Below the pieces are notes generated by a model. It was not told the origin of the DNA. It did no database searches and saw only the letters and a list, made by a program, of their open reading frames with translations. The position numbers were made by a program, and so were the translations under genes. From positions 1-64,000 of the forward strand of contig PGXY01000011.1 in the NCBI GenBank assembly GCA_002839375.1: DNA of 64,000 bases, in the 5' to 3' direction. Below, piece by piece: positions 45,160 through 64,000 of this stretch (positions are counted from its first letter, which is position 1; each line of letters starts with the position of its first letter). The stretch is from Spirochaetae bacterium HGW-Spirochaetae-1 (GTDB taxonomy: Bacteria; Spirochaetota; UBA4802; UBA5550).

Positions 45160-45183
45160 AAATAATGTAACAGGGAGTGCCTC

Positions 45184-46674: not shown

Positions 46675-47652
46675 ATGAAGACCGGCGCTCAACATAGTAA
46701 AATTCTACCCCTGGTAAAAAGGCTGATACCCTGGTTCGTAGCCGCGGTCATCCTCGTCTTCCTTTTTTATCGTGTTGATGGCAGGCATTTTGTCCAGTCT
46801 ATGCAGGTGGCTGACCTGTCCATGTATGCGCCATGGCTGGTTGTCTTTTGCCTGGCCTGGTTCTTTTTCGATGTTCAGAATATCCAGGCAACGGTGAACA
46901 ATTACGGATATACCGTGAGCTTTCGTGATATCATGTCCATGCGCGGTGTGACCTACCTGCTGATGATAGTGGATTATACCCTGGGGATGGGCGGCATGGT
47001 GCTCTATCTCAAAAATGATAAGAATATCCCCATCGTTAAAAGCACCGGTCTCATGATGGTTTATACCGGCGTTACCCAGTTCAGCCTTTTCATCATGGCG
47101 GCGATAGGATGCTGGCTCGGTGATATGTCAAAGGTCCTTTTCAGGACTGTTTTTGCAACCTGTGTTTCCCTTGCCGCGGTGTATGTAGCCGCGATTATTG
47201 TTATCAAATTGCTTCCTGAAAAGGGCAGGGTGGGCCGTTTTAAAAATCTTGCTATTGTGAAGCTCTATCACGAGGTTTCGTGGCAGGGATATGTGTCCCT
47301 CATCGTGTGGAGAATTGCCTATTATGCCACCTATATCCTGTTTTATTATATTGCCATGCCGCTTTTTGGCATGCATGTGCCCATTGAGGTTCTCATAACG
47401 GCTGTGCCGCTTATTCTGCTGGTGATCAGTTTTCCCGTAACTCCCTTCGGGCTGGGGACTGCCCAGGCAGCCATGCTTTTTCTTTTCAAAGGGTATGGAA
47501 CCGAGGCTGCCATACTGGCCTTTGGTATTACCTATTCAACATCCATTGTGCTGATCAGGGGACTTATCGGTCTCTTCTATGTTAAAAAAATATCAGGTCT
47601 CATGCCTGGTAAACTGTGGGATTCCAAGGAGATGCTTAATGAAAAGATTTAA
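46675..47652 (+). CDS. Flippase-like polytopic membrane protein (LPG-synthase transmembrane family)
   Basis: 325 residues with about eight helices. Belongs by pattern to the YbhN/UPF0104 group, relatives of the membrane half of lysylphosphatidylglycerol synthase (VVFCLAWFFFDVQN; ITAVPLILLVISFPVTPFGLGTAQAAML). These proteins are suspected lipid or lipid-linked intermediate flippases. No cytoplasmic transferase domain is attached. Ends 14 bases inside the following gene. Likely export function for the product of this locus, by inference. Confidence 0.75.
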   Translation: MKTGAQHSKILPLVKRLIPWFVAAVILVFLFYRVDGRHFVQSMQVADLSMYAPWLVVFCLAWFFFDVQNIQATVNNYGYTVSFRDIMSMRGVTYLLMIVDYTLGMGGMVLYLKNDKNIPIVKSTGLMMVYTGVTQFSLFIMAAIGCWLGDMSKVLFRTVFATCVSLAAVYVAAIIVIKLLPEKGRVGRFKNLAIVKLYHEVSWQGYVSLIVWRIAYYATYILFYYIAMPLFGMHVPIEVLITAVPLILLVISFPVTPFGLGTAQAAMLFLFKGYGTEAAILAFGITYSTSIVLIRGLIGLFYVKKISGLMPGKLWDSKEMLNEKI

Positions 47653-48781
47653 TGTGCTATTATCCATATTGCTGATCATCGTTGCCATGGCGATTGTGCC
47701 TGGTTGCGACAGCGGCTCCCTGGGAGGAGGATCCAATTCCCGCGACACGGACGGCGGTTCAGATGGTGACGGGACCGGACCGGTAAAGCTACTGTTTACC
47801 GGTGACGTCATGCTTGCAAGGAATGTGGCCAATCTCGTTTATGAAAAAAACGGCGGTGATTACAGCTGGCCCTTCCTGAAGATTGCCGATTTCCTCAATG
47901 ATGCCGACCTGACCATCTCCAACCTGGAAGGACCTATTTCCGACAAGGGCGACAAGTATCTTAAATCTGCTCCATGGTTCAGGGCGGAACCCGAGGCGGT
48001 CAACGGTCTGAACTATGCCGGTATTGACATTGTTTCACTGGCTAACAACCACATCTTTGACTACGGACGCGAGGCCATGGAAGATTGTTTTGGTCAGTTG
48101 GACAGGGCAGGGATCAGATACATGGGCGCCGGAATGACTCGTGACGAGGCCTATGCGCCGGTTATCGTCAACATAAATGGACTGAAGATAGCATTCCTGG
48201 CCTTCACGAACCACGGCGATGCTTCATGGCAGGCCGAGGTTGATTATTATACGACCTTTGAGGAATTAGTTGCCCAGGTACCGCTAATCGGTGATCTTTT
48301 TCTTCAGACCCAGGTGCTGGATCATCTCATGAACATGCCGATACCCGTTACCGAGGAATCGTCGGGTGTGGCCTGGCTCTATATCAAACAGCTTGAGCGG
48401 GCCATATACAAGGCCCGTGAAGAGGCGGACATAGTTATCGTTTCACTGCATTTCGGCGAGGAGTATGCCGAGACGATCAGTTCTGCCCAGGACCGCTATG
48501 CTCACCTGGCCATTGATCGCGGAGCGGACATGGTCGTGGGCCATCACCCCCACGTGACACAGCCCATAATGGTGTATATGGGTAAAGTCATTGCCTATTC
48601 CCTGGGAAATTTTGTTTTTGATCAACGTGAATCCTATGAATCGGGGACAACAACGGGCCTGGTTCTGGAAGTAAATATCGAGGACAAGAAAATTCAGAAC
48701 GTGGAAGGCCATTATACAAAGATAATTGAAGAAGAATGGCAGACGCAGCTTACGCCCTTTGAATATGGAGATCTGGACTGA
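47639..48781 (+). CDS. CapA-family metallophosphatase-like lipoprotein
   Basis: 380 residues. Lipoprotein signal with the cysteine near residue 22 (AIVPGC), then a Gly/Ser/Asp linker. CapA fold motifs are VKLLFTGDVMLARNV, LTISNLEGPISD, IDIVSLANNHIFDYG, HFGEEY and VVGHHPHVTQPI, the calcineurin-like metal ligands. CapA is named from poly-gamma-glutamate synthesis, where it acts in polymer export or anchoring. AAGGAG six bases before the ATG at 47639 supports overlap with the flippase gene. Confidence 0.88.
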   Translation: MKRFNVLLSILLIIVAMAIVPGCDSGSLGGGSNSRDTDGGSDGDGTGPVKLLFTGDVMLARNVANLVYEKNGGDYSWPFLKIADFLNDADLTISNLEGPISDKGDKYLKSAPWFRAEPEAVNGLNYAGIDIVSLANNHIFDYGREAMEDCFGQLDRAGIRYMGAGMTRDEAYAPVIVNINGLKIAFLAFTNHGDASWQAEVDYYTTFEELVAQVPLIGDLFLQTQVLDHLMNMPIPVTEESSGVAWLYIKQLERAIYKAREEADIVIVSLHFGEEYAETISSAQDRYAHLAIDRGADMVVGHHPHVTQPIMVYMGKVIAYSLGNFVFDQRESYESGTTTGLVLEVNIEDKKIQNVEGHYTKIIEEEWQTQLTPFEYGDLD

Positions 48782-48788
48782 TAAAAAT

Positions 48789-49913
48789 ATGAACAGCCCG
48801 TTCGCACATACCAGGAGCGATGATGGACGTGTGAGTCTTGAAGAAAGACTTGCGGCCCTGATTCCCGTCAGGCATGTTGTCCTGACCGGGTATGCGAGAA
48901 ATGCCCTCTTTCTCCTGGTGAAAACCATGGGTTGGGACAGCGGTGCCGAGGTTATCATTCCCGCCTTTACCTGTTCGGTTGTTCCCATGTCAATCCGTGA
49001 GGCCGGGGCGATACCCATACCTGTAGATGCCGAGTCCCAAGGTATTAACATGGATCCGGCCCTTATCGAAAGGGCTATCACACCGCGAACCAGGGCTATC
49101 TACGTGGTACATACCTACGGGACACCGGCCCGTATGGAGGAAATATGCGCTATTGCGAATAAACACGGTCTCAAGGTTATTGAAGACCTGGCGCAATCCT
49201 TCTTTGCAGAGCATCGGGGCAGGAATGTGGGGAGTTTCGGCGATTTTGCCATACTGAGTTTTACCAAGAAGATCATTAATTTTGAGGGAGGAGCTCTCAC
49301 CACCAATGATACGGAACTGTACTGCCGCATGAAGGATACACAGGCCGCCCTTAACCGGGAAAGGCATTTTACTGTTGCGGGGCTTACGGACCAGGTAGTG
49401 AGAATAATCAGTTCCTTCTGGGAATCGCGTTTCTCCTTTTCCGTTCTGCTTGTCTTCAAACTGCTGGATATGATCAATACGGTTTTATACCGGGGCTCCT
49501 ATGGCGTTTCCGTCAATCCGCAGCGGTTTATGATGCATGGTCTGGCGATTAAAATAACGGGAATGCAACTCGATTCGTGGAGAACGAAGACCGGCAATGG
49601 CAGAAATATCCGCCGCTTTGAAAACGGGCTGAGAGAAGTCGTTGCATGCCCCGGCGCGGTGAGCGGTCTGGCCGATCCGAGGCCGGAATATTTTACCGGT
49701 ATACCGCTTAAGGAATCGTTCTGGATGCGGTTTATATCGTTCCGGACATGGCATAATTTCAATGAAAAGGGAGTATTCCCGCGTGCCGATTATCTTTATG
49801 AAAATTACAGGGTTTTTTCCAGAATAATACTTTGGTCTTCCCGGAGAGAACGGGAAGGAGCCATGGCATATCATGAACGGGAGTATGACCGGTCTGCCGG
49901 GAATGCCCGGTGA
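48789..49913 (+). CDS. DegT/DnrJ/EryC1/StrS-type PLP-dependent protein
   Basis: About 374 residues. Fold type I aminotransferase family that modifies sugars or small building blocks. HVVLTGYARNALFLLV, EVIIPAFTCSVVPM, KVIEDLAQSFFAEH and SFGDFAILSFTKKIINFEGGAL are the family series; the last contains the likely PLP lysine. The C-terminal third is atypical. Start is uncertain: ATG at 48789, after the capA-like stop, is preferred over in-frame ATGs at 48726 and 48765. It could aminate a precursor for the synthetase. Confidence 0.82.
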   Translation: MNSPFAHTRSDDGRVSLEERLAALIPVRHVVLTGYARNALFLLVKTMGWDSGAEVIIPAFTCSVVPMSIREAGAIPIPVDAESQGINMDPALIERAITPRTRAIYVVHTYGTPARMEEICAIANKHGLKVIEDLAQSFFAEHRGRNVGSFGDFAILSFTKKIINFEGGALTTNDTELYCRMKDTQAALNRERHFTVAGLTDQVVRIISSFWESRFSFSVLLVFKLLDMINTVLYRGSYGVSVNPQRFMMHGLAIKITGMQLDSWRTKTGNGRNIRRFENGLREVVACPGAVSGLADPRPEYFTGIPLKESFWMRFISFRTWHNFNEKGVFPRADYLYENYRVFSRIILWSSRREREGAMAYHEREYDRSAGNAR

Positions 49914-49932
49914 AAATGAGGGAGGTTTTATT

Positions 49933-51036
49933 ATGAACCAGGCAATAGCTGACAGGGTAAAAGAATATCAGACTTCAGAACAGGAAGTAAAAAAGGCTCT
50001 CCCTGTCACATGCAATAATTTTTTCCTTCTGAATCACAGGGGATTCAATTACTATGGCATTGACCTGCGAAAAGTCGACTTCGAAATCATCAGGGACATA
50101 GTGAAAGGTTGCGAGGAAGTGGAGAAAGACTGCTGGGATCCCCAGGAGAATTTCTTTGATTACATTCAAAAAAGTGATATTCTCGCTTATGCGGAAAAAG
50201 ACGGCCGCATCGTCGGCTTCAATCTCGTTTCTCTCCTTATGTCCGACGGGCACTGCATATACAGTATAGACGAGGCCATGGTTCTCAAAAAATGCCAGGG
50301 GAACAATATAGCCCGCAATGTTGTGATGCTTACCATACGCTGGTTTTTCCTGAAGACCGACGAGGCCCTGACAGTGAAGAAAATATACCCGCTTTCCATT
50401 TCAGCCAACCCAAAGGTTGTAAATAATTATTTCAAAAACAAGTATCTAACCAGCATTTTTGATAATTCGTTCCGCCCTTCGGAGAAACTGATCGATCTTC
50501 ATCTCCAGTACGTGAAGGAAAACAATTTGTTGCTGGTCGACGAGAAATATCCTTTCTGCGTAAAGAACCTGTTTCCCGGCTCAAACCGTTTCAAAGAGAA
50601 CGATAAGCGATACCAGTTTAAGGACGGCGTTAAAAAGAACATGCCCGATGATTTCGATCATATTCACCGCGGTGATGCCTTCTCCTTCATGGTCAGGATC
50701 GGCGTAGGTCCCTTCTGGTTTGTCAATACCCTCCTCCTCCTGATAATTCTGGGGAAAAAGATGATTTTCAATAAGGGGATAGGATTCCTTGGCTCCGGGA
50801 AATACCAAAGCGCCGATGAAAGCTTTCAGTATACTGACGAGTATAGTGACAGAAGAGGCGGAGATCGAAGAGTTATGGATATTGGTGCGTATCTCGATGA
50901 TCGGTTTAACCGAAGGAAAACGGGAAGGCGTACAGTCGACGAAAATTTAAACTCCAGGGATGGACTGAAAAGAAAACTCCGGCTCACGGGAAAGAAAGAA
51001 TCGCGAAAAATAGCATCGATGACACTGCTGCTGTAG
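49933..51036 (+). CDS. GNAT-like protein with membrane helix and basic tail
   Basis: 367 residues. The first ~220 contain a GNAT-like core (ILAYAEKDGRIVGFNLVSL, then IDEAMVLKKCQGNNIARNVVMLT, matching the acetyl-CoA loop region). One hydrophobic helix (about 253-270) follows, then a basic arginine-rich tail (DRRGGDRR, RRKTGRR). It could N-acylate an amino intermediate, for instance that of the DegT-type enzyme upstream. GGGAGG seven bases before the ATG at 49933 decides the start; the frame is open to 49873. Family assignment moderate. Confidence 0.65.
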   Translation: MNQAIADRVKEYQTSEQEVKKALPVTCNNFFLLNHRGFNYYGIDLRKVDFEIIRDIVKGCEEVEKDCWDPQENFFDYIQKSDILAYAEKDGRIVGFNLVSLLMSDGHCIYSIDEAMVLKKCQGNNIARNVVMLTIRWFFLKTDEALTVKKIYPLSISANPKVVNNYFKNKYLTSIFDNSFRPSEKLIDLHLQYVKENNLLLVDEKYPFCVKNLFPGSNRFKENDKRYQFKDGVKKNMPDDFDHIHRGDAFSFMVRIGVGPFWFVNTLLLLIILGKKMIFNKGIGFLGSGKYQSADESFQYTDEYSDRRGGDRRVMDIGAYLDDRFNRRKTGRRTVDENLNSRDGLKRKLRLTGKKESRKIASMTLLL

Positions 51037-52290
51037 TTATAAAAATTTGCTTTTTTGAACCGGGTATTCCTTCGCGGACTGCAACGTAGAATAAGTCGGC
51101 TTCCGGGCTTGAAGCTCCTTCTTTAAGCGTTCGAGCAGAGCTTCAAGTCGTCCTCTCGAGGCGAGGGCATTGGGAAGAGATAGCGTGAGTTCCACCCTTT
51201 TATGAGTGCCTGCCAGTGCCATGAAGAAGGGAAGGGATTCTACGCCCGGCGGAATAAAGAAACCGGTATTACAAACAAACCCGCCTCCCTGAAAGTGTTC
51301 CAGGGGAAGCCGTCCTGGATTGGACAGAATCCCGGAATTCCTGAAAAATCCGCTCCGGTATTTCATTGCTGTTTCCCGGTATACTGTGCCTTTGAGAAGC
51401 CATAGAGGTATGAAACGGGCAAGATTATCCCCCCAGTACTGCATACCGTCACATCGTTTTTCAATCTGTGCGGTAATGTCAGCGGAAACCAATTCCGGTG
51501 TTGAGTCGGGCAAGATATCCAGGTATATGAGATTGGTCAGGTTTCCTGTTGATTGCAGCCCCTGAACACGGAACCGCATATCCACCGGGACGGCGATCCT
51601 TACCTTGCCATCTTTATGTTTTCTTGCCTCATCGGCCATGATGCAGGCGATCTGGCCCAGCAGATTCGGATATTTTCCTTCAAGGGTTACCCTTTTCCAT
51701 ATAATGCCTCGCTTGTCTGCATCGGCCCAGCCCGTGGGAGCTATAAAGCGGTGTTTTGGTGGTGTTCTGCTTTCTTTCTGATATAAACGGGCGAGTTTCT
51801 GTTCCGTGAGAGCACAATGAGACCCAATAGGTTTTTCGCCGCGGAGCGAGCGGAATATATCCAGGGCCCATGACATAGTGCCCCTGGCGTCCATGGCGCC
51901 ATGGTGAGTGCGGAATGCGATACGCGGAGTGCCGCCGTTAATCAGGATGACTTCGCAGGTGGGTCCTTTTATGGGAGAAAGTTTTCTTTCGAGAAATGGA
52001 GCTCCTTCAGGACCTATACCGTTCCAGGCGGATCCATCCTCTTTACGCACATCGGGGGCAATTCCTGAGTCAACCCAGTGGCTCAGCGGGCCGTGTCCCC
52101 GGCATACGATACGGCTTCCGGGATTTGCTTTCGAGGCCTCTTTAACCGCCAGTATCCATTTTTTGTAATCAAGACAGCCTGATCCTTCGAGGATCATCTG
52201 GTTGGCGAAGGGCGGACATATGTGATTATATATCAGGTAAACTCGTTCCGTAGGTGACATTTTTCGTTTGTATTTATTTTGTTCGTTCAT
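51037..52290 (-). CDS. Stand-alone HHxxxDG acyltransferase paralogue 5 (variant motif)
   Basis: 417 residues, last of five tandem paralogues. Shares PTERVYLIYNHICPPFANQM at the N-terminus, a central VRIAVPVDMR with LQSTGNLT, and a late GILSNPGRLPLEHF. The active-site motif is THHGAMDARG rather than HHxxxDGRG: catalytic histidine and aspartate remain but glycine is alanine. It could still acylate, or be altered in specificity. A longer C-terminal tail (KPTYSTLQSAKEYP) is unique among the five. Its 3' end abuts the GNAT-like gene with no gap. AAGGA lies upstream. Confidence 0.78.
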   Translation of the reverse strand: MNEQNKYKRKMSPTERVYLIYNHICPPFANQMILEGSGCLDYKKWILAVKEASKANPGSRIVCRGHGPLSHWVDSGIAPDVRKEDGSAWNGIGPEGAPFLERKLSPIKGPTCEVILINGGTPRIAFRTHHGAMDARGTMSWALDIFRSLRGEKPIGSHCALTEQKLARLYQKESRTPPKHRFIAPTGWADADKRGIIWKRVTLEGKYPNLLGQIACIMADEARKHKDGKVRIAVPVDMRFRVQGLQSTGNLTNLIYLDILPDSTPELVSADITAQIEKRCDGMQYWGDNLARFIPLWLLKGTVYRETAMKYRSGFFRNSGILSNPGRLPLEHFQGGGFVCNTGFFIPPGVESLPFFMALAGTHKRVELTLSLPNALASRGRLEALLERLKKELQARKPTYSTLQSAKEYPVQKSKFL

Positions 52291-52338
52291 ATCAATAAGG
52301 TCCTTCTGAAAAAATATATGGAAAAAAAATTTTCTTTT

Positions 52339-53544
52339 CTACTGCGGTGGTTTCTCAGCGGGCCGAAAGTTCGCGGATATGCGGTTAAATGTATCTTCAA
52401 GACGGCCGTTTGTTGCCAGTACTTTCGGAACAGTAAGAATCATTTCAAAAATATTTCCATATCCGCCCAGGCCAAGAAAAAATGGAAAATACTCGATAGT
52501 GGGGGGGATTCCAAAAAGGCCATCGGTGTTGAATCCTCCACCGGAGAAATATTGAAGAGGTATCCTTCCCATATTGGTCAGGACCCCGGACATGCTGTAC
52601 AGATTATTTTCATGACGGCGGGCTATAATTTTTTTTGTTTTCTCCGCCATGAGCTTTATCGGAATATGACGATACAGGTCGTCTCCCGGTGTCAGCATTC
52701 CCTCACGCCTTTCTCTCACCTGTTGTTCGACTTCAGCGGCGACTTGTTCGGGTGTCGTTTCCGGTCGGACTTCAATGTAGATGGCAAAGCTCAGGTTTCC
52801 CGTTGAGCGGAGACCCTTCTGGTGTTGCCGCATATCAACGGGAATAGAGAAACGGACAACACCCTCGCGGTGACGCCATGCTTCCTTCGCTGTGAGGACC
52901 GCTATCTGTCCCAGCGCATTGGGGTATGTTCCGGTGAGGCGTTTTCTTTTCCATGTCATCCCTTCTTCGCTCCCCTGTGCTGAACCGGTCGGCGCTATAT
53001 GTTCGACCGGGTATGGCTTTCGGGTTTCTTTCTGGATTTCCCGTGCCAGTTCAGTATCGGTGAGTATAGAAGTTGATCCGATGGGTTCCTCGCCGCGGAG
53101 GACACGAAAAATATCTTCAGCCCAGGTCATGGTACCTCTGCCGTCCATAACTGCGTGATGAGTCCTGAAAGCGACACGCAGAGGATTCCCATGAATAAGG
53201 AGAATTTCGCAGCTGGGTCCTTCCCGATAAGGCAGTATTGTCTTTAAAAAAGGAGCATTATCGGGGCCCATTGCATCCCATGACGAGCCATCGGCTTCCC
53301 GAATCGTTGGAGTTTTGCCCGTATCGATCCACCTGCTTCTCCCTAATCGTCCCTTCAGAACTACCCTGCTTCCGGGATTTGCTTCCGATGCCGTTTTTAC
53401 TGCCTGCTCCCATCTTTTTTTATCAAGCACTCCACTTCCTTCGAAAATAAGCTGATTGGCAACTGGTGGGCACATCTCGTCAAAAACGAGAAAAAATCTT
53501 TCATTGAAGGAAAGAGGCCGGGTGTATTTTACAGATTGTTTCAT
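52339..53544 (-). CDS. Stand-alone HHxxxDG acyltransferase paralogue 4
   Basis: 401 residues. Belongs to the superfamily of NRPS condensation domains, PapA proteins and CAT, judged from THHAVMDGRGTM (His-His-Asp about residue 130) and VRFSIPVDMR with LRSTGNLS. The start at 53544 (MKQSVKYTRPLSF) aligns with the other paralogues; the longer open frame to 53616 would overlap paralogue 3. GGGAA lies seven bases upstream and the gap to paralogue 3 is 16 bases, so the two form one transcript. Confidence 0.82.
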   Translation of the reverse strand: MKQSVKYTRPLSFNERFFLVFDEMCPPVANQLIFEGSGVLDKKRWEQAVKTASEANPGSRVVLKGRLGRSRWIDTGKTPTIREADGSSWDAMGPDNAPFLKTILPYREGPSCEILLIHGNPLRVAFRTHHAVMDGRGTMTWAEDIFRVLRGEEPIGSTSILTDTELAREIQKETRKPYPVEHIAPTGSAQGSEEGMTWKRKRLTGTYPNALGQIAVLTAKEAWRHREGVVRFSIPVDMRQHQKGLRSTGNLSFAIYIEVRPETTPEQVAAEVEQQVRERREGMLTPGDDLYRHIPIKLMAEKTKKIIARRHENNLYSMSGVLTNMGRIPLQYFSGGGFNTDGLFGIPPTIEYFPFFLGLGGYGNIFEMILTVPKVLATNGRLEDTFNRISANFRPAEKPPQ

Positions 53545-53560
53545 GGTAACTTCCCTATTT

Positions 53561-54739
53561 TTATAAACTGCCGGTAATGGCGTCCAGGATTGATTCGATT
53601 CTTCCATTTCCTGCATACACCCCGGGCATGGTAGCCAGAATCTCCAGAGTGTCGCCGTTTCCCGTTGTGGTGATGCTCACGGGAAGCGATTCCAGGCATA
53701 CCGGGACGAAAAAAACGGTCCCGGTCGTAAATCCTCCTCCGTAAAAATTTTCAACGGGAAATCTACCAAGATTGGAGACGAAGGCCGAACAACGAAAATG
53801 GTTTTCCGCCTGTTTTCTTCTTGTTTCCTCCCTGAGGGCCGCGCGGAGCACCCAGAGGGGTAGATGACGGACAACCCGGTCTTCCCATGTGAGCTCGCCG
53901 TCAATTTTTTGTGCGAGGCGTTTTTGCAGATCTTCACTCACTGATTCCATCGTCGATTCCATTGATATATCAATGTAAAGAGCGTTGGTCAGGTTTCCCG
54001 TGGAGCGGGCCTCGGGCTTCCGGGGGCGGAGATCAACGGGTATTCCTATCCGGACCATCCCTTCCTCGTACCGCCATGCTTCGCGGGCAATGGTGAGCAT
54101 GATGCGGGGCAGCAGCTTCGTGAATGGTCCCTGGGCCCGGGTTCTCTTCCATACAAGTCCCGGGGAATTTCCCGTCGCCCTGCCTGCCGGGGATATGTAC
54201 CGGTGAGGAATGGTTTTGGCCAGCTTTTTACCGGAGAGATTGAGCAGATCATTTTCCGTCAGGGGGATCTGTGAGCCAAGGGGTTCCTCGCCCCGGAGCA
54301 CCCGGAAGATATCCTCGGCCCAGAGCATGGTCCCCCTGCCGTCCATGACGGCGTGGTGTGTCCTGAAGGCAATCCGTGGCGGGGTGCCGTTGATGATGAC
54401 CACTTCGCAGGTAGCGCCTTTTCTGAGATGGAAGACGCTTTTCAGGAATGGAGCATTTTCGCTGCCCATGCCATCCCATGCCGATCCGTCGATTTCGCGG
54501 ATTGCCGGTGTAATGCGTGAATCGACCCACTTGCTCGTGCCGCCATAACCGTGAAACTTAAGGCGGCTTCCCGGGTTTGCTTCCGAAGCGATTTCCACGG
54601 CACGGGCCAGGTCCTGGCGGTTGATATCACCTGTGCCTTCCATGATCATCTGGTTGGCCAGGGGCGGGCATACTCGGCCTGCGGCTACCCATAATCGTGA
54701 AGCATTGGAACATGTACGAAATGACCTTTTTTTACCCAC
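53561..54739 (-). CDS. Stand-alone HHxxxDG acyltransferase paralogue 3, GTG start
   Basis: 392 residues. Active site THHAVMDGRGTMLWAED and VRIGIPVDLR with ARSTGNLT. The N-terminus (KKRSFRTCSNASRLWVAAG) is diverged from the other four, but the family NQMIMEG block aligns, supporting the GTG at 54739. Its only ribosome-site candidate, AAAGG, lies in the 3' arm of a 12-base-pair hairpin (54748-54780), and a copy of the shared 14-base motif lies further upstream. Independent transcription and hairpin-controlled translation are therefore likely. Confidence 0.8.
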   Translation of the reverse strand: MGKKRSFRTCSNASRLWVAAGRVCPPLANQMIMEGTGDINRQDLARAVEIASEANPGSRLKFHGYGGTSKWVDSRITPAIREIDGSAWDGMGSENAPFLKSVFHLRKGATCEVVIINGTPPRIAFRTHHAVMDGRGTMLWAEDIFRVLRGEEPLGSQIPLTENDLLNLSGKKLAKTIPHRYISPAGRATGNSPGLVWKRTRAQGPFTKLLPRIMLTIAREAWRYEEGMVRIGIPVDLRPRKPEARSTGNLTNALYIDISMESTMESVSEDLQKRLAQKIDGELTWEDRVVRHLPLWVLRAALREETRRKQAENHFRCSAFVSNLGRFPVENFYGGGFTTGTVFFVPVCLESLPVSITTTGNGDTLEILATMPGVYAGNGRIESILDAITGSL

Positions 54740-54747
54740 AGCTTTTA

Positions 54748-54780
54748 ACCTTTCCTGATCATGAATGCATCAGGAAAGGT
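54748..54780 (-). promoter_or_regulatory. Leader hairpin that may hide the ribosome site of paralogue 3
   Basis: ACCTTTCCTGAT and ATCAGGAAAGGT pair perfectly over 12 bases with a 9-base loop. On the minus strand the second arm contains AAAGG, nine bases before the GTG at 54739, and the first arm is complementary to it. Confidence 0.5.
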
Positions 54781-54813
54781 CTACAATCGAAGAGAAGAAA
54801 AATCAAGAAAAAA

Positions 54814-54827
54814 AACCGTCTGGAAGG
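54814..54827. promoter_or_regulatory. Shared 14-base operator candidate, copy 2
   Basis: ACCGTCTGGAAGGG. The block 54801-54826 matches 57401-57426 at 25 of 26 bases, including AATCAA (a minus-strand TTGATT -35 candidate), so both gaps carry the same promoter module. Confidence 0.6.
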
Positions 54828-54893
54828 GGCAATATTTGATATGAATCTGACCTATGCTGCAATTTGTTTGGCGGCGATATTTCTCTGGCGCAA

Positions 54894-56084
54894 TCAGCCC
54901 GTGAATGAATCCAGTCCCCCGATGATGCCTTCCATGGCTTTTTCCAGCCTGCCATCGGTGGCAAGGGCCCGGGGCATGCTGACGACCAGTTCCACCGTGT
55001 CATTGTACCCGGCCAGTCCCATGAAAAAAGGCAGGTATTCCACCGCCGGCGGTATGCCGCAGAAGGCCGTGGCGTTGAACCCGCCGCCGGAGAAATAGCG
55101 CAGGTCGATGAGGCCCATGTTAGAAAGAATGGCAGTGTTGCGGTACAGACCCATATCATGCTTTATCTGTACTTCATTGCGGAGTGATCTTCTTACCATG
55201 GCAAGCGGAATGAATCGTACCACTTCATCGGCCCAGTACAGCATGCCGTCATTTTTGTTTGCTATCTGTTCCTCCATGTTTTTGACCAGGTCTTCATAGG
55301 TGGTGTTCTCCGTAACGTCAAAATAGATAAGGTTTGTCAGGTTGCCTGTCGAGCGCAGTTTTTCCTGCCGAAACCGCAGGTCCACGGGGATGGCAAAACG
55401 CACCGGTCCCGGAGAATGGCGCCATGCCTCGCGGGCAAGGAGGACGGCAACTTTTGGCAGCAGGTTTTTAATGGGTCCCTTTGTCTTATAACGGCGCCAG
55501 CAGATTCCCGTTACCCCCTGCGCCGCTTTGCCTGTGGGCGATATAAACTGGTGGCTGGGAGGGGTCCTTCCCTGCTTTTGATAGCTCCTGGCCAGTTCCT
55601 GCTCGGTAATGGCCGATGATGATCCCCGGGGCTTTTTATCGTTCAGGACCCGGAATATGTCTTCGATCCAGGTGAAGGTCCCCCTGCCGTCCATGATGGC
55701 ATGATGTGTTCTGAAAAAGACACGCAGGGTTTCGCCGTGGAGCAGGAGTACCTCGCTGCTGCGGCCGTCTGTTGTGGAAAGCTGCTTTTGCAGAAAGGGA
55801 GCATTATTGAGGTCCACGCCGGACCAGGAGCTGCCATCGGCTTCTACTACCTCGGGAGTCAATCCGGAGTCTACCCAGCGGCATCGGTTTAAAAATCCCC
55901 GGAGGATGAGCCTGCTGCCGGGATTCGCTTCCGAGGCTTCACGCACGGCTGCTTTCCATTTCTCTATATTGAATGAGCCGGTCCCTTCGAAAAAAAATTG
56001 GTTTGCGAAGGGTGGATTCATTTCGCCGTTAATCAGGTATATTCTTTCCGTTGAACTCAGTTTTCGCGTATATTTTTTCTGCAT
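54894..56084 (-). CDS. Stand-alone HHxxxDG acyltransferase paralogue 2
   Basis: 396 residues. THHAIMDGRGTFTWIED, VRFAIPVDLR and LRSTGNLTNLIYFDV are intact, as is the late NTAILSNMGLIDLRYFSGGGF block. The ATG at 56084 is chosen because GGAAGG lies seven bases upstream; an in-frame GTG at 56090 adds two residues. The gap to paralogue 1 is 43 bases, so these two are probably co-transcribed, while paralogue 3 has its own upstream module. Confidence 0.82.
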   Translation of the reverse strand: MQKKYTRKLSSTERIYLINGEMNPPFANQFFFEGTGSFNIEKWKAAVREASEANPGSRLILRGFLNRCRWVDSGLTPEVVEADGSSWSGVDLNNAPFLQKQLSTTDGRSSEVLLLHGETLRVFFRTHHAIMDGRGTFTWIEDIFRVLNDKKPRGSSSAITEQELARSYQKQGRTPPSHQFISPTGKAAQGVTGICWRRYKTKGPIKNLLPKVAVLLAREAWRHSPGPVRFAIPVDLRFRQEKLRSTGNLTNLIYFDVTENTTYEDLVKNMEEQIANKNDGMLYWADEVVRFIPLAMVRRSLRNEVQIKHDMGLYRNTAILSNMGLIDLRYFSGGGFNATAFCGIPPAVEYLPFFMGLAGYNDTVELVVSMPRALATDGRLEKAMEGIIGGLDSFTG

Positions 56085-56127
56085 ATACACACCTTCCCGG
56101 TGAAATAATGAAGATACTGCTGAAACA

Positions 56128-57333
56128 TTATTTTTTTCCTGACTCGTCCTGCTGCAGGCCTGTTATCAGCGTATCGAATATACTGTCCATACGATTTTGC
56201 CCGGCCAGTACCTTCGGCATAGTGATTATGATTTCCGTTGTGTCATTATTGTAGCTGCATGTTCCCATAACAAGGGGGAAATATTCCCCGCCGGGAGGTA
56301 TGCCCCACATGGCCGATGCGGTGAATCCGCCGCCGCTGAAGCGGGACAGGTCCAGGGCGCCCATATTGGAAATCAGGCTGGATATGCTGTAAATGCCTTC
56401 CCGGTGTCTCTCGCGGCATATGCTTTTGGCCTTCCATGCCATGAGACTCACCGGTATCTGCCGGTATATATCATCGCCTTCCGAGAGGATGCCGTCGGGG
56501 AACGAGGATATCTGAGCTGTAATGTCATTTTTGATGGATTCCACCGTTGAATCCTTTTTGATTTCCACATATATGGCAAAGGTGAGATTGCCCGTGGAGG
56601 TCAGACCTTCTTCGTAGGCCCGCAGGTCTACGGGAATGCTTATACGCACTATGCCATCACGGTATTTCCACGCTTCCCGGGCCAGGAGCAGAGCCAGCCG
56701 GGCCGTGATATTGGGATATGTTCCCTGGATGGTTCTTCTCTGCCAGGTCACTCCGCTCGGCTCTCCATCGGCTGTTCCCGTTGGTGCAATATGTTCAAAG
56801 GGGAAGGCCTTTCGCGATTTTGGCTGTATTTTCATGGCCAGTTCAGCATCGGTGAGAACTGAATTGCTTCCGCGGCATTTTTTTCCATTCAGGGCCCTGA
56901 ATATGTCAAAGATCCAGGTCATGGTTCCTCTTCCGTCCATGACGGAGTGGTGGGTGCGAAAAATAACCCTTTGAGGCGTTCCTTCCACTAGAAGAACTTC
57001 ACAGGGTAAGCCCTGGCGGATCGGCAGAGCCGTTTGCAGGAAGGGCGCGTTTTCAGGATCGTGTCCAGACCACTGTGATCCGTCAACCTGCTTAACCGGC
57101 GGTGTTTTGCCCGAGTCCACCAGGCGGCTGAATCCGAGATGTCCCTTGAGCATAACGCGGCTGCCGGGATTTGCCTCCGATGCTTCACGGACCGCCCTTT
57201 CCCATGATTCGGGTTCGAAGGAACCTGCCCCCTCCATGATGAATTGGTTGGCTATGGGAGGATTTATTTTGTCAAAAACCAGAAAAAATCTTTCGTTGAA
57301 GGAAAGCTGACGTTTGTATGGTGTTTTTTTCAT
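56128..57333 (-). CDS. Stand-alone HHxxxDG acyltransferase paralogue 1
   Basis: 401 residues, first of the five in transcription order. N-terminal SFNERFFLVFDKINPPIANQ; active-site His-His at 128-129 and Asp 133 in THHSVMDGRG; VRISIPVDLRAYEEG and LTSTGNLTFAIYV; a final SNMGALDLSRFSGGGF. No signal peptide or membrane helix, so cytoplasmic. In related enzymes the second histidine catalyses acyl transfer from a carrier protein or CoA to an amine or alcohol. AAGG eight bases before the ATG. Divergent from the giant synthetase gene. Confidence 0.83.
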   Translation of the reverse strand: MKKTPYKRQLSFNERFFLVFDKINPPIANQFIMEGAGSFEPESWERAVREASEANPGSRVMLKGHLGFSRLVDSGKTPPVKQVDGSQWSGHDPENAPFLQTALPIRQGLPCEVLLVEGTPQRVIFRTHHSVMDGRGTMTWIFDIFRALNGKKCRGSNSVLTDAELAMKIQPKSRKAFPFEHIAPTGTADGEPSGVTWQRRTIQGTYPNITARLALLLAREAWKYRDGIVRISIPVDLRAYEEGLTSTGNLTFAIYVEIKKDSTVESIKNDITAQISSFPDGILSEGDDIYRQIPVSLMAWKAKSICRERHREGIYSISSLISNMGALDLSRFSGGGFTASAMWGIPPGGEYFPLVMGTCSYNNDTTEIIITMPKVLAGQNRMDSIFDTLITGLQQDESGKK

Positions 57334-57413
57334 GTTTTTGGCCTTATTGCGTGGATTTTATATTTCTGTAATATATATAGATAAGCAAATTATTGTAAGA
57401 AATCAAGGAAAAA

Positions 57414-57427
57414 ACCGTCTGGAAGGA
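57414..57427. promoter_or_regulatory. Shared 14-base operator candidate, copy 3
   Basis: ACCGTCTGGAAGGA, eight bases upstream of the TTGATT -35 candidate of paralogue 1 on the minus strand, the same geometry as copy 2. Confidence 0.6.
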
Positions 57428-57562
57428 TTTATTTTTACAAGAAAATTAATCGCTTAATTAAATTTTATGGTGGAAAAATTCACCGGGGTGATTTATGAGA
57501 TGTTTACTGCTGAAGTATTCAGAAGATGCTGCATGATTAAATCAGAATGTCTAAAAATTGAC

Positions 57563-57591
57563 TTGATTCCGTCTGGACGGTGTTCTAAAAT
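57563..57591 (+). promoter_or_regulatory. Promoter TTGATT-17-TAAAAT containing operator copy 4
   Basis: The most symmetric motif copy, TCCGTCTGGACGGT (57568-57581), starts on the last base of TTGATT and fills the spacer. A protein bound here would block polymerase, arguing for repression at this site. Confidence 0.5.
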
Positions 57592-57724
57592 TGAATCCTG
57601 TTAATTTAATAGTAATAAAGAAGATGATATTTAAAATAATGAACAAAAAATTAAAAATATATAGTAAAATAAATAAAAAATGTTCTTTTTTGCCTTTTCT
57701 AAAACCCATATGGGAGGTTTTTTG

Positions 57725-57754
57725 TTGACATTATTTTAGAGATGTCGTTATAAT
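57725..57754 (+). promoter_or_regulatory. Consensus promoter TTGACA-18-TATAAT of the giant synthetase
   Basis: Both hexamers are exact. Transcription would begin near 57761, about 270 bases before the start codon. Motif copy 5 lies about 20 bases downstream of the expected start. Confidence 0.75.
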
Positions 57755-57778
57755 AGATTTGTCGTTAAAGTTAAAAAT

Positions 57779-57792
57779 ACCGGCTGGACGGT
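57779..57792. promoter_or_regulatory. Shared 14-base operator candidate, copy 5
   Basis: ACCGGCTGGACGGT, in the early transcribed region of the synthetase leader, where a bound repressor would act as a roadblock. Confidence 0.55.
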
Positions 57793-57962
57793 TTGATAGT
57801 TTGAAAAAACTTATCCTTCTCCATCAGTGTTTTAACGGGCCTTTGAAATTAAAAAATATAAAGACTCACAATAATCAATCAGCCAGATTATAAAACAACT
57901 CACTGACAAAAAAAGACCTTACATGCAAAATCAATCACACCTGGCTGCCGTCTGAAAGTATC

Positions 57963-57992
57963 CTGAAAAACTCCATCAATGAAGTTTTTCAG
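57963..57992 (+). promoter_or_regulatory. Leader hairpin before the synthetase gene
   Basis: CTGAAAAACT and AGTTTTTCAG pair perfectly over 10 bases with a 10-base loop. It lies 38 bases before the start codon and is not followed by a T-run. Attenuation, mRNA protection or antitermination are possible. Confidence 0.45.
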
Positions 57993-58029
57993 CTAATTGT
58001 TAATTGTAATACTTGGGGGGTATTCCATA

Positions 58030-61000
58030 ATGAATAAAAAGCTCGTCACCACGAACCAGAGTGATCTTGCCACACTTCCTGATGCGGTCACTTCAGGACC
58101 GGAACTCAATATTCTTCCTTATTTTCCCTTGACCCTTGTGGATATGATCTGCTCAACGGCCAGGATTGCCTCAAAAAGGGGCATTATCTATGTTGATACA
58201 CAGGGAAATGAAGAGCTGCAGACATACCCTGAACTGCTGGAGCAGAGCGGTCGAATCATGGGTGCTATGCGATCTATGGGGCTGGCTAAGGGCGACAGCG
58301 TCATAATGCAGCTGGATAACGAGAGAAATTTCATCGAGGGATTCTGGGCCTGTATCCTGGGCGGATTTATTCCCGTGCCGCTGGCGCTTCCCGCGGGCCT
58401 CATGGGAATCGGTGCCGAAAAGGTGGCCAATGTATGCCGCATCATGGGCAACGCTCATCTGCTCACGGATCAGTCCACTGACCAGTACAGGGATTTCCAG
58501 GTTCTTTCGGTCATTGAAATAGCGGGCCTTGGTGACCATGCCGAGGATCGGGACTATCATCGGCCCGATCCTGATGATCTGGCCTACCTGCAGTTTTCCT
58601 CGGGATCAACGGGAGATCCCAAGGGCGTCATGCTTTCTCACCGGAATCTCGCCAGCAATATATACGCTATAATCCGGGCCTCGGCCAACGAGGAGGAGCA
58701 GAAACTTATCGATGATATGTTCAGCAATCCCCCCGTTGAAATGGAATACCCCGTTTCTACGTGCAGCTGGCTTCCCCTTTCCCACGACATGGGTCTTATC
58801 GGTTTTCACATCGCACCCCTTGCCGTGAGTATGATGCAGATAAAAATGGGGACCACAACTTTTGTGGTCAATCCCTCGCTTCATTTACAGCTTATTCACA
58901 AGCACCGCGTTACGCAGATGGCAAGCCCCAATTTCGGTCTTTCATGGATGGTGAATGTCGTCAAGGATGAACTCATCCAGGGCGTTGATCTTTCCTGTGT
59001 CGAAATTCTTTTCAACGGCGCCGAACCCATTTCCGGCAGCGCCGTCAGGGCCTTTGTCGATCGTTTTTCGAAATATGGATTCAATCCCCGGGCCATGTTT
59101 CCGGTTTACGGCATGGCTGAGGCAACGCTCATGATATCGGCGCCTCCCGTCAACTCTGAAAACGTTTTTCATCACCTGGATCGGCGGACCTTTGCGCTCC
59201 GACATATGGCCGTTGATGCCGAAGGCGATGCCGAGATGATAGAATTCGCCGACGAGGGATACCCCTGCGCGGGCATGGAGGTGCGGATCGTCGATGATGA
59301 AGGAAATGCCGTCAAGGAAACCGTTGCCGGGCATATCCAGATAAAGGGCCCCCATGTAACGGGAGGCTATTACATGAATGAGAAGGCAAACACGGAGCTC
59401 TTCACCGAGGGATGGCTGAAAACCGGCGATCTGGGTTTCATCAGGGAGGGAAGGATCACTGTAACGGGCCGCTTTAAAGATGTTATTTTTGTCAACGGGC
59501 AGAATTTTTACTCGGAAGATATCGAGGAAATGCTGCAGCAACTTCCCTTTGTGGGATTCAAAAACCTGGCCGTATGCGGCATCACCGATTGTGAAGATGG
59601 AAATGAGAAGATAATTCTTTTTATGAAGACCGGCAAAGACAGGGAAAAGCTCCAGGACCTGCTCATGCGGATAAATGAAAGCATCGGTAAAAGAATAATG
59701 ACGGGCATTTCTTCCATCGTTCCCATGCAGGATATTCCCCGCACGACGAGCGGTAAAACCCAGCGGTACGTCATGAGGGAGATGTACATGCAGGGAAAAT
59801 TCGAGGACAGGGAAGTGAAGGCATCGATTGAAATCATGCCGGAAAACGAACCGGCCGGAGCCCCGGAAGAAAAGAGGAAGGAGATGGACCTTGAAGGTTT
59901 TATTAACATGCTCCCGCCGGCGATTACCAAAGGAAAATCAGGTCCCCGTCACCAGAGCCTTCACCTTTTCATCAGAAATCTGCCCATGATTATCAGGGTG
60001 GCCAATATAATCGCACCTGACAAGGGCCCCATATTCGTTGATACCGAGGGGAACGAAGAGCTGCTTACCTATGCAGAGCTGCTTCACAACGCCCGCTGCG
60101 TTCTGGGTGGTCTGAGGAAGCAGGGGATGAAACCCGGCGACCAGGTCATAATGCAGATTGAAGGAACCCGGGATTTCCTGGCGGGCTTCTGGGGATGCAT
60201 CCTCGGCGGGTTTCTGCCGGCCCCGCTCCCCGTTCCCGGAGGGTTTCCTATAAGTGAAGGTATGGAGCGTGTGGCAAAAGTAAGCGAGCTGCTCACCAGC
60301 TTCTGTATCATCACCGATCAGCCTCATGACACATATGCCTCCCTGGGTGAAGTAAAAATATATACTATCGGTGACTTGCTTAAAAATGTGCCTGATAAAA
60401 AGCATCACCGGCCGAAACAGAGTGACGCCGCTCTTCTGCAGTTTTCCTCGGGTTCAACGGGCGATCCCAAGGGTGTCATGCCCACGCACAAGAACATCAT
60501 AAACGCCATTGAGGCGGGGACTGCCGGCGTATTCGGCGTGCCCGACAATGATTACCGGCCCATCATCGGGTTTATCCTGCATATCATAAGGCGGAAGTTC
60601 CATAAACAGAATGCGATAAAAAATAACATGAAGCCGGGCCTGCTCCGCCGTTTCGACAGATCCAGGGCCGGTATCCTGCTGCGGAGATGGAAGGCGAGCG
60701 AGTACCTCCTGGATACGCTGCTCATCCTTTCGGGCAAAAAAATATCCACGTCGCTGGACATAACCTTCGACGATATTTCCATGGCCAACTGGATGCCCTT
60801 TTCCCATGTCATGGGACTTATCGGCTTTCATATTGCTCCCATGCTCGGCGCCGTGTACGCCGTGACTCTGACTCCCAGGACTTTCATTGAAAAACCGGCC
60901 CTGTTTCTAAGGCTTATCGACCGGTACGGCGCGACTCATATCCCGTGCCCCAATTTTGCGGCGCAGTGGCTTACGGCCCAGGTTAAGGAAGAGGATATGG

Positions 61001-64000
61001 ACAGGGTGGACCTCTCGTGCGTCAAGGCTCTCCTGAACGGATCGGAGCCCATCTCTTCCATGGTGACCAGGGACTTCCTCACCAGGTTCAGCAGATATGG
61101 TCTTGATCCCAGGACCATGTGGTGTGCCTACGGCATGTCCGAGGCCACGGTGGAAATCACCACATCACCGGTAATGCGTGAGCCCCTGTTCCATCGCGTC
61201 GACAAGGAAATGTTTTTTAAGCACAAGATCGCCGCTCCCACTATTTCACCCAATGACGGCATAGACCTGGCCGATGTGGGGAGTCCCATACAGGGCCTTG
61301 AAGTCCGCATTACGGATGAAAACGATCAGGTTGTACGCGAAAACATGGTGGGTCATATACAGGTGAAGGGAAACACCGTGGCATGGCGGGGATATTTCAA
61401 TAATCCCGTGGCGAACGAAAATCTCTTCACGACCGACGGATGGCTGAAAACCGGCGATATGGGTTTCATGATCGGCGGGCGCATCGTGGTGGCCGGAAGG
61501 TTAAAAGATATTATTTTTGTGAATGGCCAGAACCTGTATTCCAATGACATCGAAGAGCATATCAAGAAGGTTCCCGGTATGGCATATATCGAGTTTGCCG
61601 TAACGGGACTTAGGCAGTATGAGTCCGACAGCGAAAAGATCGTTATGTTTGTAAGGTCCGGTGAATCAAGCGAGGCCATGGCCGTGCGGCTGGCAAGGAT
61701 AAACAAGGCGCTTACCTCGGATATCGGTATTCATATAGATATCCTGGTCCCCGTGGAATCGATTCCCAGGACGCCCAGCGCCAAGATAAAGCGTTTTAAG
61801 CTGCGCGATAATTTCGAACAGGGAATGTACGGCGAACAGATCACTGCGGAAGATGCAGCCAAAATGCTTCCCGATTCCGGCGAGGCGGGCAGGGAAGAGG
61901 AGTTGACCGACACGGAAGAGCGACTCATGAGGATATGGCGGGAGGTTGTAGACCGGCAGGATATCCGCAAGACCGATAATTTTTTTGACATGGGAGGCAA
62001 CTCTCTCAAGGCCACCAGGATAGGGTCGCGCGTAAAAGAGGAATTCGGCATAGACGTTCCGCTGAGGGTGGCCTTTGAGAACCAGACCGTGCAGTCCCTT
62101 TCCGCGGCCATTGACGCTCTCCTGGGAAAGGTAAAGCCCGGCGAAGAAAAATCGTCCCTGCCGAAACTCGTACCCGTTGAGAAGAAGGAATACTACGAGG
62201 TCTCCCACGCTCAGAAGAGACTCTGGTATCTTGACAAGATCATACCCGACAGCCCCTTCTATAATATTCCCGGCGCCGTGCTCGTGGAGAATGTGGAACT
62301 GGATGTTGCCGTCATTGCCAGGGCCATGCAGGCCGTGGCGGACCGTCATGAAACACTGCGCACCGTTTTTCATGAAGTTAACGGAGAGCCGGTCCAGGTC
62401 ATTTCTGAATCAATCGCCATTGAAGTGCCGGTCATAGACCTTCAGGGAAAGGAGAACCAGGACGGTCTTATCGCGGAAATTCTGGAGAAGGAAAAGTTCA
62501 GGCCCTTTAATCTTGCAGCGGGCCCCCTTTTCAGGGTGAAAGTTGTGCGCTGCTCACCGCAGAAACACGCGCTGATCATAGTCATGCATCATATTATCTC
62601 TGATGGCTGGTCCATGGGGCTTCTGGTCCAGGAGGCCGTGGGCAATTATTTTGCCATGGCCGCCGGCGGAGCCGTTCCCCAGGGCAAACTCGCCATACAG
62701 TACAGGGATTATGCAGCCTGGCAGAACAGGGTACTGGCAGGCGATGCCTATGATGCTCAGAAAGAATACTGGCTGAAGGATCTTACGGGCGAGCTTCCCG
62801 TTCTGGAGCTCCCCTATGACCGTCAGCGGCCCGTCGTCCAGAGCCAGCGCGGTAAAACCTTCCGCACGGTCATGGATAAAAATCTGTCACGGCAGATCAG
62901 GGAATCGGCGCGCAGTCTCGATGTGACGCCCTTCATTCTGACCCAGGCAATATTTAAAATACTGCTTCATAAGCTTTCGCGGCAGGATGATATCATCATC
63001 GGCACTCCCATCGCCGGAAGAAACAGGTCCGAGATCGAGCCCCTCATCGGGTTTTTCGTCAACGTGCTTCCCATGCGGACCGTTATGACGGGAGATCCCG
63101 TGTTTAAGGCGCTTGTGGAAAGCGTGAAACAGACAGCCCTGGGAGCCTATGCCAACCAGGACTACCCCTTCGACAAGCTCGTGGAGGTCCTCAATCCCGC
63201 AAGGAACATGAGCCGTTCACCTATATTCGACGTGGTCTTCGAGTTCATCGAGGAGTCGGAGTACCTCTTCAATAACATGAACAGGAATGAAATACTACTG
63301 CGTGACATCACCGGCGATGATCCCAATGCGAAGTTTGATATTTTTCTCACTTTCATCGAGGGAAAGGAAGGCATAAATGTTAAGTTTGAATACAACGCCG
63401 ACCTGTTCAACGATGAAACCATTGAACGCTTCATGAAATATTATGTGAATATTGCGTCGTCGGTTCTGGAGAATCCCGATCTGTATATTTCTCAAATCAG
63501 CATGCTTGATGCCGGCGAAGAGAACATGGTTCTCCATGAATTCAACGGCAGGGAGCGCGATTATCCGCGGAACAAATGCATCCACGAGATATTTCAGGAT
63601 ATGGCCCTGCGGTACGCCGATAAGGCTGCCCTGGTCATGGGCGGCGAGACCATGACCTATGGAGAACTGGACATTCTTTCCAACCGGATGGCGCGCCATC
63701 TCCGCGAACACGGCGTGGGCAAGGGAACCCATGTCATACTCATGGTTGAAAAATCAACGGCGATGCTGGCGGCGGTTCTGGGCATCCTCAAGGCCGGGGG
63801 CGTGTATGTGCCCGTGGATCCCGAGTATCCACTGGCCCGCCGTAATTATATGATAAGCGATGTGAAGGCTCCCGTGGCCATTGTTCAAGGGTCCCTGACG
63901 GGAAACCTGGGTGATTTCACCGGACACACGGTGATACTGGACAGCTTTATACATGAGTGCGGTCATATAAACGGTTCGGCGATCACGAACGTCAATGATC
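58030..64000 (+). CDS. Giant NRPS-type synthetase: A(FAAL-like)-A(FAAL-like)-PCP-C-A, 3' end outside window
   Basis: Open for 1990 codons to the window edge. Domain 1 (about residues 35-620): fatty-acyl-AMP-ligase-like, FSSGSTGDPKGV, SWLPLSHDMGLIG, VYGMAEATL, KTGDLGF, PRTTSGK. Domain 2 (about 645-1265): the same series (NWMPFSHVMGLIG, CAYGMSEATV, PRTPSAK), with about 55 extra basic and hydrophobic residues after its HKN segment. Carrier domain (about 1295-1365): FFDMGGNSLKATR, with the phosphopantetheine serine. Condensation domain (about 1385-1815): SHAQKRLWYLD and HHIISDGWS. A third adenylation domain begins near 1840 (LTYGELD-like MTYGELD, ILKAGGVYVPVDPEYP) and is cut off. A GGGGGG tract precedes the ATG. 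Confidence 0.92.
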   Translation, partial: MNKKLVTTNQSDLATLPDAVTSGPELNILPYFPLTLVDMICSTARIASKRGIIYVDTQGNEELQTYPELLEQSGRIMGAMRSMGLAKGDSVIMQLDNERNFIEGFWACILGGFIPVPLALPAGLMGIGAEKVANVCRIMGNAHLLTDQSTDQYRDFQVLSVIEIAGLGDHAEDRDYHRPDPDDLAYLQFSSGSTGDPKGVMLSHRNLASNIYAIIRASANEEEQKLIDDMFSNPPVEMEYPVSTCSWLPLSHDMGLIGFHIAPLAVSMMQIKMGTTTFVVNPSLHLQLIHKHRVTQMASPNFGLSWMVNVVKDELIQGVDLSCVEILFNGAEPISGSAVRAFVDRFSKYGFNPRAMFPVYGMAEATLMISAPPVNSENVFHHLDRRTFALRHMAVDAEGDAEMIEFADEGYPCAGMEVRIVDDEGNAVKETVAGHIQIKGPHVTGGYYMNEKANTELFTEGWLKTGDLGFIREGRITVTGRFKDVIFVNGQNFYSEDIEEMLQQLPFVGFKNLAVCGITDCEDGNEKIILFMKTGKDREKLQDLLMRINESIGKRIMTGISSIVPMQDIPRTTSGKTQRYVMREMYMQGKFEDREVKASIEIMPENEPAGAPEEKRKEMDLEGFINMLPPAITKGKSGPRHQSLHLFIRNLPMIIRVANIIAPDKGPIFVDTEGNEELLTYAELLHNARCVLGGLRKQGMKPGDQVIMQIEGTRDFLAGFWGCILGGFLPAPLPVPGGFPISEGMERVAKVSELLTSFCIITDQPHDTYASLGEVKIYTIGDLLKNVPDKKHHRPKQSDAALLQFSSGSTGDPKGVMPTHKNIINAIEAGTAGVFGVPDNDYRPIIGFILHIIRRKFHKQNAIKNNMKPGLLRRFDRSRAGILLRRWKASEYLLDTLLILSGKKISTSLDITFDDISMANWMPFSHVMGLIGFHIAPMLGAVYAVTLTPRTFIEKPALFLRLIDRYGATHIPCPNFAAQWLTAQVKEEDMDRVDLSCVKALLNGSEPISSMVTRDFLTRFSRYGLDPRTMWCAYGMSEATVEITTSPVMREPLFHRVDKEMFFKHKIAAPTISPNDGIDLADVGSPIQGLEVRITDENDQVVRENMVGHIQVKGNTVAWRGYFNNPVANENLFTTDGWLKTGDMGFMIGGRIVVAGRLKDIIFVNGQNLYSNDIEEHIKKVPGMAYIEFAVTGLRQYESDSEKIVMFVRSGESSEAMAVRLARINKALTSDIGIHIDILVPVESIPRTPSAKIKRFKLRDNFEQGMYGEQITAEDAAKMLPDSGEAGREEELTDTEERLMRIWREVVDRQDIRKTDNFFDMGGNSLKATRIGSRVKEEFGIDVPLRVAFENQTVQSLSAAIDALLGKVKPGEEKSSLPKLVPVEKKEYYEVSHAQKRLWYLDKIIPDSPFYNIPGAVLVENVELDVAVIARAMQAVADRHETLRTVFHEVNGEPVQVISESIAIEVPVIDLQGKENQDGLIAEILEKEKFRPFNLAAGPLFRVKVVRCSPQKHALIIVMHHIISDGWSMGLLVQEAVGNYFAMAAGGAVPQGKLAIQYRDYAAWQNRVLAGDAYDAQKEYWLKDLTGELPVLELPYDRQRPVVQSQRGKTFRTVMDKNLSRQIRESARSLDVTPFILTQAIFKILLHKLSRQDDIIIGTPIAGRNRSEIEPLIGFFVNVLPMRTVMTGDPVFKALVESVKQTALGAYANQDYPFDKLVEVLNPARNMSRSPIFDVVFEFIEESEYLFNNMNRNEILLRDITGDDPNAKFDIFLTFIEGKEGINVKFEYNADLFNDETIERFMKYYVNIASSVLENPDLYISQISMLDAGEENMVLHEFNGRERDYPRNKCIHEIFQDMALRYADKAALVMGGETMTYGELDILSNRMARHLREHGVGKGTHVILMVEKSTAMLAAVLGILKAGGVYVPVDPEYPLARRNYMISDVKAPVAIVQGSLTGNLGDFTGHTVILDSFIHECGHINGSAITNVND

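Follow-up and report, generated by a model that had tools for sequence, protein, structure and literature searches.

An acyltransferase array beside a peptide synthetase

What do five free-standing acyltransferase genes do beside a nonribosomal peptide synthetase (NRPS)? The question is raised by the first 64,000 nucleotides (hereafter the window) of contig PGXY01000011.1 of Spirochaetae bacterium HGW-Spirochaetae-1 (assembly GCA_002839375.1), where five intact paralogues of about 400 amino acids (aa) lie head to tail on the minus strand (51037-57333). We propose, with a probability of roughly 0.5, that this array and a conserved operon next to it form a horizontally spread cassette for the stepwise acylation of one exported lipid or glycoconjugate.

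The five tandem paralogues had been described in an earlier note on this DNA, and their open reading frames were found at exactly the limits given there. Read 5' to 3', they are array gene 1 (P0005, 56128-57333, 401 aa, class alpha), array gene 2 (P0004, 54894-56090, 398 aa, class gamma), array gene 3 (P0003, 53561-54739, 392 aa, GTG start, class beta), array gene 4 (P0002, 52339-53616, class alpha) and array gene 5 (P0001, 51037-52290, 417 aa, class gamma), each a predicted acyltransferase of one of the three classes discussed below. The true start of array gene 4 is most likely the internal ATG at 53544, which would abolish its overlap with array gene 3. Pairwise BLASTP identities among the five proteins are 42-53% over ~385-400 aa. 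The HH-x3-D, PPxANQ, PVDxR and STGNL motifs are present in 5/5 copies, as the earlier note had it; its late SNxG block is found in four, and array gene 4 carries TNMG instead. Across the locus there is no break in GC content. Chance origin of these reading frames was ruled out by the full-length homologues with the same motifs found in many genomes.

Fold and active site place the array proteins in the condensation/BAHD superfamily

None of the five proteins matched a Pfam or NCBIfam family at its curated cut-off. The profiles by which the earlier note had hoped to check its assignment (PF00668, PapA, WS/DGAT and AATase) gave either sub-threshold scores or nothing. PF00668, the NRPS condensation domain, had zero matches at E<=1; the PapA5 model NF006787 was reached by P0004 alone (E 0.11, 11.4 bits against a cut-off of 396), as was WS/DGAT PF03007 (13.1 bits against 23.6); and there was no match to PapA PF16911, BAHD PF02458 or AATase PF07247. 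A sequence-profile search of the PDB with the array returned chance-level matches only, and alignment of the array profile to the condensation domains of the window genome by hhalign gave a probability of 6%.

Structure prediction was more informative. An AlphaFold model (AF2) of P0005, built with 43 homologues from the window genome and fetched loci, reached a pLDDT of 93.4 and a pTM of 0.93 and has a two-lobed condensation/CAT-like fold. Its best Foldseek matches in the PDB were AzeD, CmnI, NRPS epimerisation and condensation domains, and the plant BAHD enzyme COSY, with E values of 1e-19 to 1e-15 and a TM to query of about 0.53-0.74 for the condensation, epimerisation and BAHD structures. 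The second His and the Asp of HHxxxD (His129 and Asp133 in P0005) are invariant in 43/43 homologues; the first His is kept in 34/43. A bridge to the superfamily is provided by a second family of stand-alone condensation-like proteins of ~460 aa, which aligns with the array family at 97.7% probability in a profile-profile comparison and has a member in the window genome that passes PF00668. Because modelled fold, catalytic residues and this bridge agree, the array proteins are placed in the condensation/BAHD acyltransferase superfamily, in keeping with the assignment first made for them. By their sequences they make up a coherent enzyme family that has no Pfam or NCBIfam name.

Another reaction of the superfamily (amide formation, dehydration or epimerisation), with a small amine or amino acid as its substrate, might be considered in place of acyl transfer to a lipid or glycan, given that AzeD, the top fold match, is described as a dehydratase, that an epimerisation domain comes next and CmnI stands near the top, and that OaaC is a stand-alone condensation domain making fatty acid amides (PMC13142362). 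However, fold rank among superfamily members says nothing about reaction type, and the flippase-like, CapA, RND or MFS export genes found with the arrays are a better fit to a surface product. We regard this alternative as quite improbable.

The array is composed of three old classes in a recurrent order

A tree of 51 rows resolved an alpha clade (12 rows, support 100/98) and a beta clade (12 rows, support 100/99), the remaining window copies falling in a less well supported gamma group. Two columns near the N-terminus are diagnostic, residue 13 being N/A/T and residue 17 F/W/Y for alpha/beta/gamma, and in the window copies both agree with the classes in the tree. Identity is 49-53% within classes versus 41-45% between them.

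Gene order also recurs. Written 5' to 3', arrays are beta-alpha-gamma in L006 and L007, beta-beta-alpha-gamma in L037 (the two beta copies being close), other-beta-alpha-gamma in L011 and L032, gamma-beta-alpha in L010 and L035, and alpha-gamma in L009. The window array reads alpha-gamma-beta-alpha-gamma, that is, alpha-gamma plus beta-alpha-gamma. In 8/8 arrays containing the two classes, some of them closely related to one another, beta lies immediately 5' of alpha; six of the eight have beta-alpha-gamma and two gamma-beta-alpha. Members from Smithella and a deltaproteobacterial metagenome-assembled genome (MAG) interleave with Spirochaetota members in the tree; therefore, the block has moved between phyla. 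On the tree, the main classes are older than the split of the Spirochaetota and deltaproteobacterial carriers, and the array copies are thus old, differentiated enzymes.

Recent tandem amplification as the main cause of the array was ruled out by the tree. A related explanation takes the paralogues as redundant, or as retained for dosage, with repeated local duplication and gene conversion maintaining copies that have no distinct roles. The variable copy number, the pairing of the two window alpha copies, P0002 and P0005 (92/86), and the two close beta copies of L037 all speak for it. Against it stand the age of the classes relative to that split, with their recurrent order and diagnostic residues, and the excess of within-class over between-class identity, and we hold it to be the least probable of the explanations considered here.

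With genome sampling that is partial and relatives that include MAGs, the array family was found in 8/393 sampled genomes of the phylum, all 8 within one family, which rules out a housekeeping role. In the phylum of Smithella, 6/395 sampled genomes carry the family at E 1e-10, of which three have distant members only. Copy number per locus ranges from 1 to 5. Other Spirochaetota and Smithella/deltaproteobacterial MAGs have arrays of 2-4 copies, and the layout is thus not unique. A Smithella-type cassette was also seen on a contig titled Methanolinea, an archaeon (L008), probably through a binning error.

A conserved operon, and not the synthetase, accompanies the array

Directly downstream of the array, convergent with it on the other strand, lie six plus-strand genes (43714-51036). 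They encode a CapK/PaaK-like adenylate-forming ligase (43714-45159, conserved in 9 loci); a secreted C45-type Ntn hydrolase/acyltransferase whose signal-peptide-like segment is followed immediately by a Cys (45184-46614, 7 loci); an LPG-synthase-TM type membrane protein, a candidate lipid flippase (46675-47652, 10 loci); a CapA (PGA_cap) lipoprotein-like protein (47579-48781, 4 loci); a DegT/DnrJ/EryC1-type aminotransferase (48726-49913, 5 loci); and an acyltransferase with a C-terminal hydrophobic segment (49873-51036, 10 loci), whose GNAT fold comes from a medium-confidence model (pLDDT 69).

All genes neighbouring array genes were compared across the window, named MAGs (Smithella, a deltaproteobacterial MAG, Spirochaetes) and relatives of the window genome. 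The CapK/PaaK-like ligase, C45 hydrolase, LPG-TM protein and GNAT-TM protein recur near arrays; CapA and the DegT aminotransferase join this set in Spirochaetota, and Smithella cassettes adjoin an AcrB-type RND pump. Operon partners recur at several loci in Spirochaetota (G003, G015, G017, G018) and Smithella/deltaproteobacterial MAGs, and array and operon share a locus in the window genome, in those four genomes, and in G019 and G393-G396. The GNAT gene co-occurs with the array: it is present in 7/20 genomes of the family, all 7 of which have the array, or in 7/8 array genomes versus 0/12 others. The eighth (G009), in which no GNAT was found, is a fragmented MAG that is 85% complete. The conserved partner of the array is the CapK/C45/flippase/GNAT operon. 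No description of this operon was found in the papers searched, nor did searches on tandem stand-alone condensation acyltransferases, CapK-linked acyltransferases or Smithella/Spirochaetota clusters yield one.

The synthetase presents a different picture. It begins at 57997 on the plus strand and extends past the window to contig 80533, its first gene (57997-64000 in the window, on to contig 66699) being a neighbour that is not conserved with the array and probably lies outside the module. Motif positions and domain hits give the order: two adenylate-forming domains, carrier, condensation-adenylation-carrier-epimerisation, four condensation-adenylation-carrier modules and a thioester reductase. 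In the first gene, the two adenylate-forming domains appear to stand in tandem ahead of the first carrier, their core motifs lying at residues 201 and 817 with a DIP2-like AMP segment between them, an unusual loading arrangement. Further along, at contig 86970-88910 (L002 10971-12911, minus strand), a protein joining an acetyl-CoA hydrolase/transferase to a GNAT domain at its C-terminus is encoded beside the NRPS cluster.

Canonical condensation domains were found in three genomes of the family: the window genome (G000), G003, where they are on another contig, and G014, which has no array. They thus occur in 2/8 array genomes, linked to the array only in the window (association p = 0.34). Six of the seven array-bearing relatives are without one, so that the same array stands in genomes without a synthetase, an outcome that the earlier note had itself named as fatal to its tie between array and NRPS; beyond the window genome that link is not supported. 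Its remark that no stand-alone carrier lies nearby was borne out by a crude motif scan of 40.0-58.1 and 80-90 kb. The synthetase ends in its own thioester reductase; consequently, release enzymes, one of the roles suggested for the array, are not needed. From its domain content, the NRPS shows no evident need for five transferases.

Could the array nevertheless have been recruited to the NRPS in the window genome, its five enzymes acylating or varying the lipopeptide together with two further genes? These are stand-alone condensation-like genes of the ~460-aa family that lie beyond the NRPS and outside the window (contig 84162-85547 and 85579-86973), so that array-family genes flank the NRPS on one side and related genes on the other. 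Array and NRPS also diverge from a common 663-bp region (57334-57996). Four spaced copies of one CCGKCTGGAMGG-like repeat lie in it at 57415, 57569, 57780 and 57948, along with a sigma-70-like site (12/12, 57725-57754) facing the NRPS; the repeats are candidate operators for a regulator. The two families occur together in L088, L091 and L092, making local integration into one pathway possible, and one homologue is fused to adenylation and carrier domains (L072, below). Yet the distribution of canonical condensation domains among the array-bearing relatives speaks against recruitment, as does the lack of any ~460-aa family member in the 19 other genomes of the bacterial family; moreover, with its own epimerisation domain and terminal reductase the NRPS lacks no obvious step. 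Recruitment is therefore considered unlikely.

A proposed cassette for stepwise acylation of a surface product

We return to the proposed acylation cassette. Stepwise multi-acylation, another of the roles offered by the earlier note, is favoured because the copies are three ancient classes that have been kept together. Each array protein would be a soluble HxxxD-type acyltransferase that takes an acyl group from CoA or a carrier thioester and places it on a hydroxyl or amine group of an acceptor shared by all. Different, non-redundant steps would fall to the alpha, beta and gamma classes, of which the window genome has an additional alpha-gamma pair. An acid may be activated by the CapK/PaaK-like ligase; the DegT and GNAT enzymes may install an amino group and acylate it; the LPG-type membrane protein may act as the flippase for the product; and C45 and CapA, both exported, may finish or handle it outside. 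Smithella versions have an adjacent AcrB-type pump in place of CapA/DegT. A product in the cell envelope, either a lipid or a glycoconjugate, fits this set of ligase, aminotransferase, GNAT, flippase-like and exported proteins.

More distant arrays offer a hint as to the acceptor. Those of L091 and L092 adjoin a UGT-type glycosyltransferase, a UDP-galactopyranose mutase, an MFS transporter and CapA, neighbours that point to a sugar. The two loci (L091 2103-13246 and L092 5230-16352) share a cluster in which a single array-like transferase is joined by two or three of the 460-aa type, and which possibly makes a galactofuranose-containing acylated glycolipid. Elsewhere in the window's own genome, on a contig of about 220 kb (L004 6988-11874), a PF02458-like and a PapA_C-like stand-alone transferase form a pair that adjoins a UGT-type glycosyltransferase and a methyltransferase-like gene.

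Several points weigh against the acylation cassette. Function beyond fold and active site is what we infer. The gamma group is weakly resolved and lacks strong support as one clade. The co-occurrence of GNAT and array has a Fisher p of 1e-4, a value that overstates independence, since the carriers are kin. DegT and CapA are absent from the Smithella versions. In the window, array and operon are on opposite strands and hence do not form one transcript. In G017, a four-gene array lies apart from the operon, which holds a single copy, and in G426 and G646 array-family genes are present but GNAT is not; array and operon are thus separable. Finally, array-family genes stand alone in nearly all loci, with one exception: a 1325-aa protein of L072 (9046-13023, minus strand) joins an array-family domain to a condensation C-lobe-like part, an adenylation domain and a carrier domain. 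This fusion suggests that the array-type fold can work with carrier-bound substrates, and some members thus work with NRPS-type parts.

A more specific version of the proposal, which we hold only tentatively and think somewhat doubtful, is a mobile cassette of Spirochaetota and syntrophic deltaproteobacteria in which three dedicated acyltransferase classes, kept in a recurrent order, would build a multiply acylated surface lipid or glycolipid with no polyketide or peptide synthetase. If the cassette proposal holds, it would predict a new class of surface lipid. The locus also illustrates how a block of genes next to an NRPS, which automatic cluster calling would probably add to the NRPS cluster, can belong elsewhere.

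Comparison with known systems

The plant acylsugar acyltransferases ASAT1-4 (BAHD) belong to the same fold superfamily as the array. In tomato, these four paralogues add acyl chains to sucrose in sequence (PMC13415957). They are plant enzymes, whereas the array has no PF02458 match, and the likeness is one of logic only. NRPS condensation domains share the fold and HxxxD with the array proteins, yet the latter do not match PF00668, their genes lie outside assembly lines at nearly all loci, and most of their carriers have no NRPS. OaaC, a free-standing condensation domain that uses an acyl donor and a small acceptor (PMC13142362), resembles the array in being stand-alone; the description is of a single enzyme that works with an acyl carrier protein (ACP), whereas the crude motif scan found no ACP near the array.

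A further parallel is with the mycobacterial PapA enzymes. PapA2 and PapA1 act on trehalose sulfate in sulfolipid-1 (PMC6996325), and PapA3, of diacyltrehalose, works with Chp2 and MmpL10 (PMC4183827). Like the proposed array, PapA1, PapA2 and PapA3 are stand-alone condensation-superfamily enzymes that act stepwise on one acceptor, and their systems likewise include an adenylate-forming ligase together with an RND/MmpL exporter (PMC6996325, PMC4183827). The array differs in scoring below the PapA models, in having no polyketide synthase partner in its module and in keeping three classes side by side. By these comparisons, PapA and ASAT are likenesses in working and not in family membership, the array being a separate family. 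We infer that it represents a new family within a known kind of multi-acylation system; if the proposal is true, it would be a bacterial, synthetase-free counterpart of PapA- and ASAT-type stepwise acylation that has spread between phyla.

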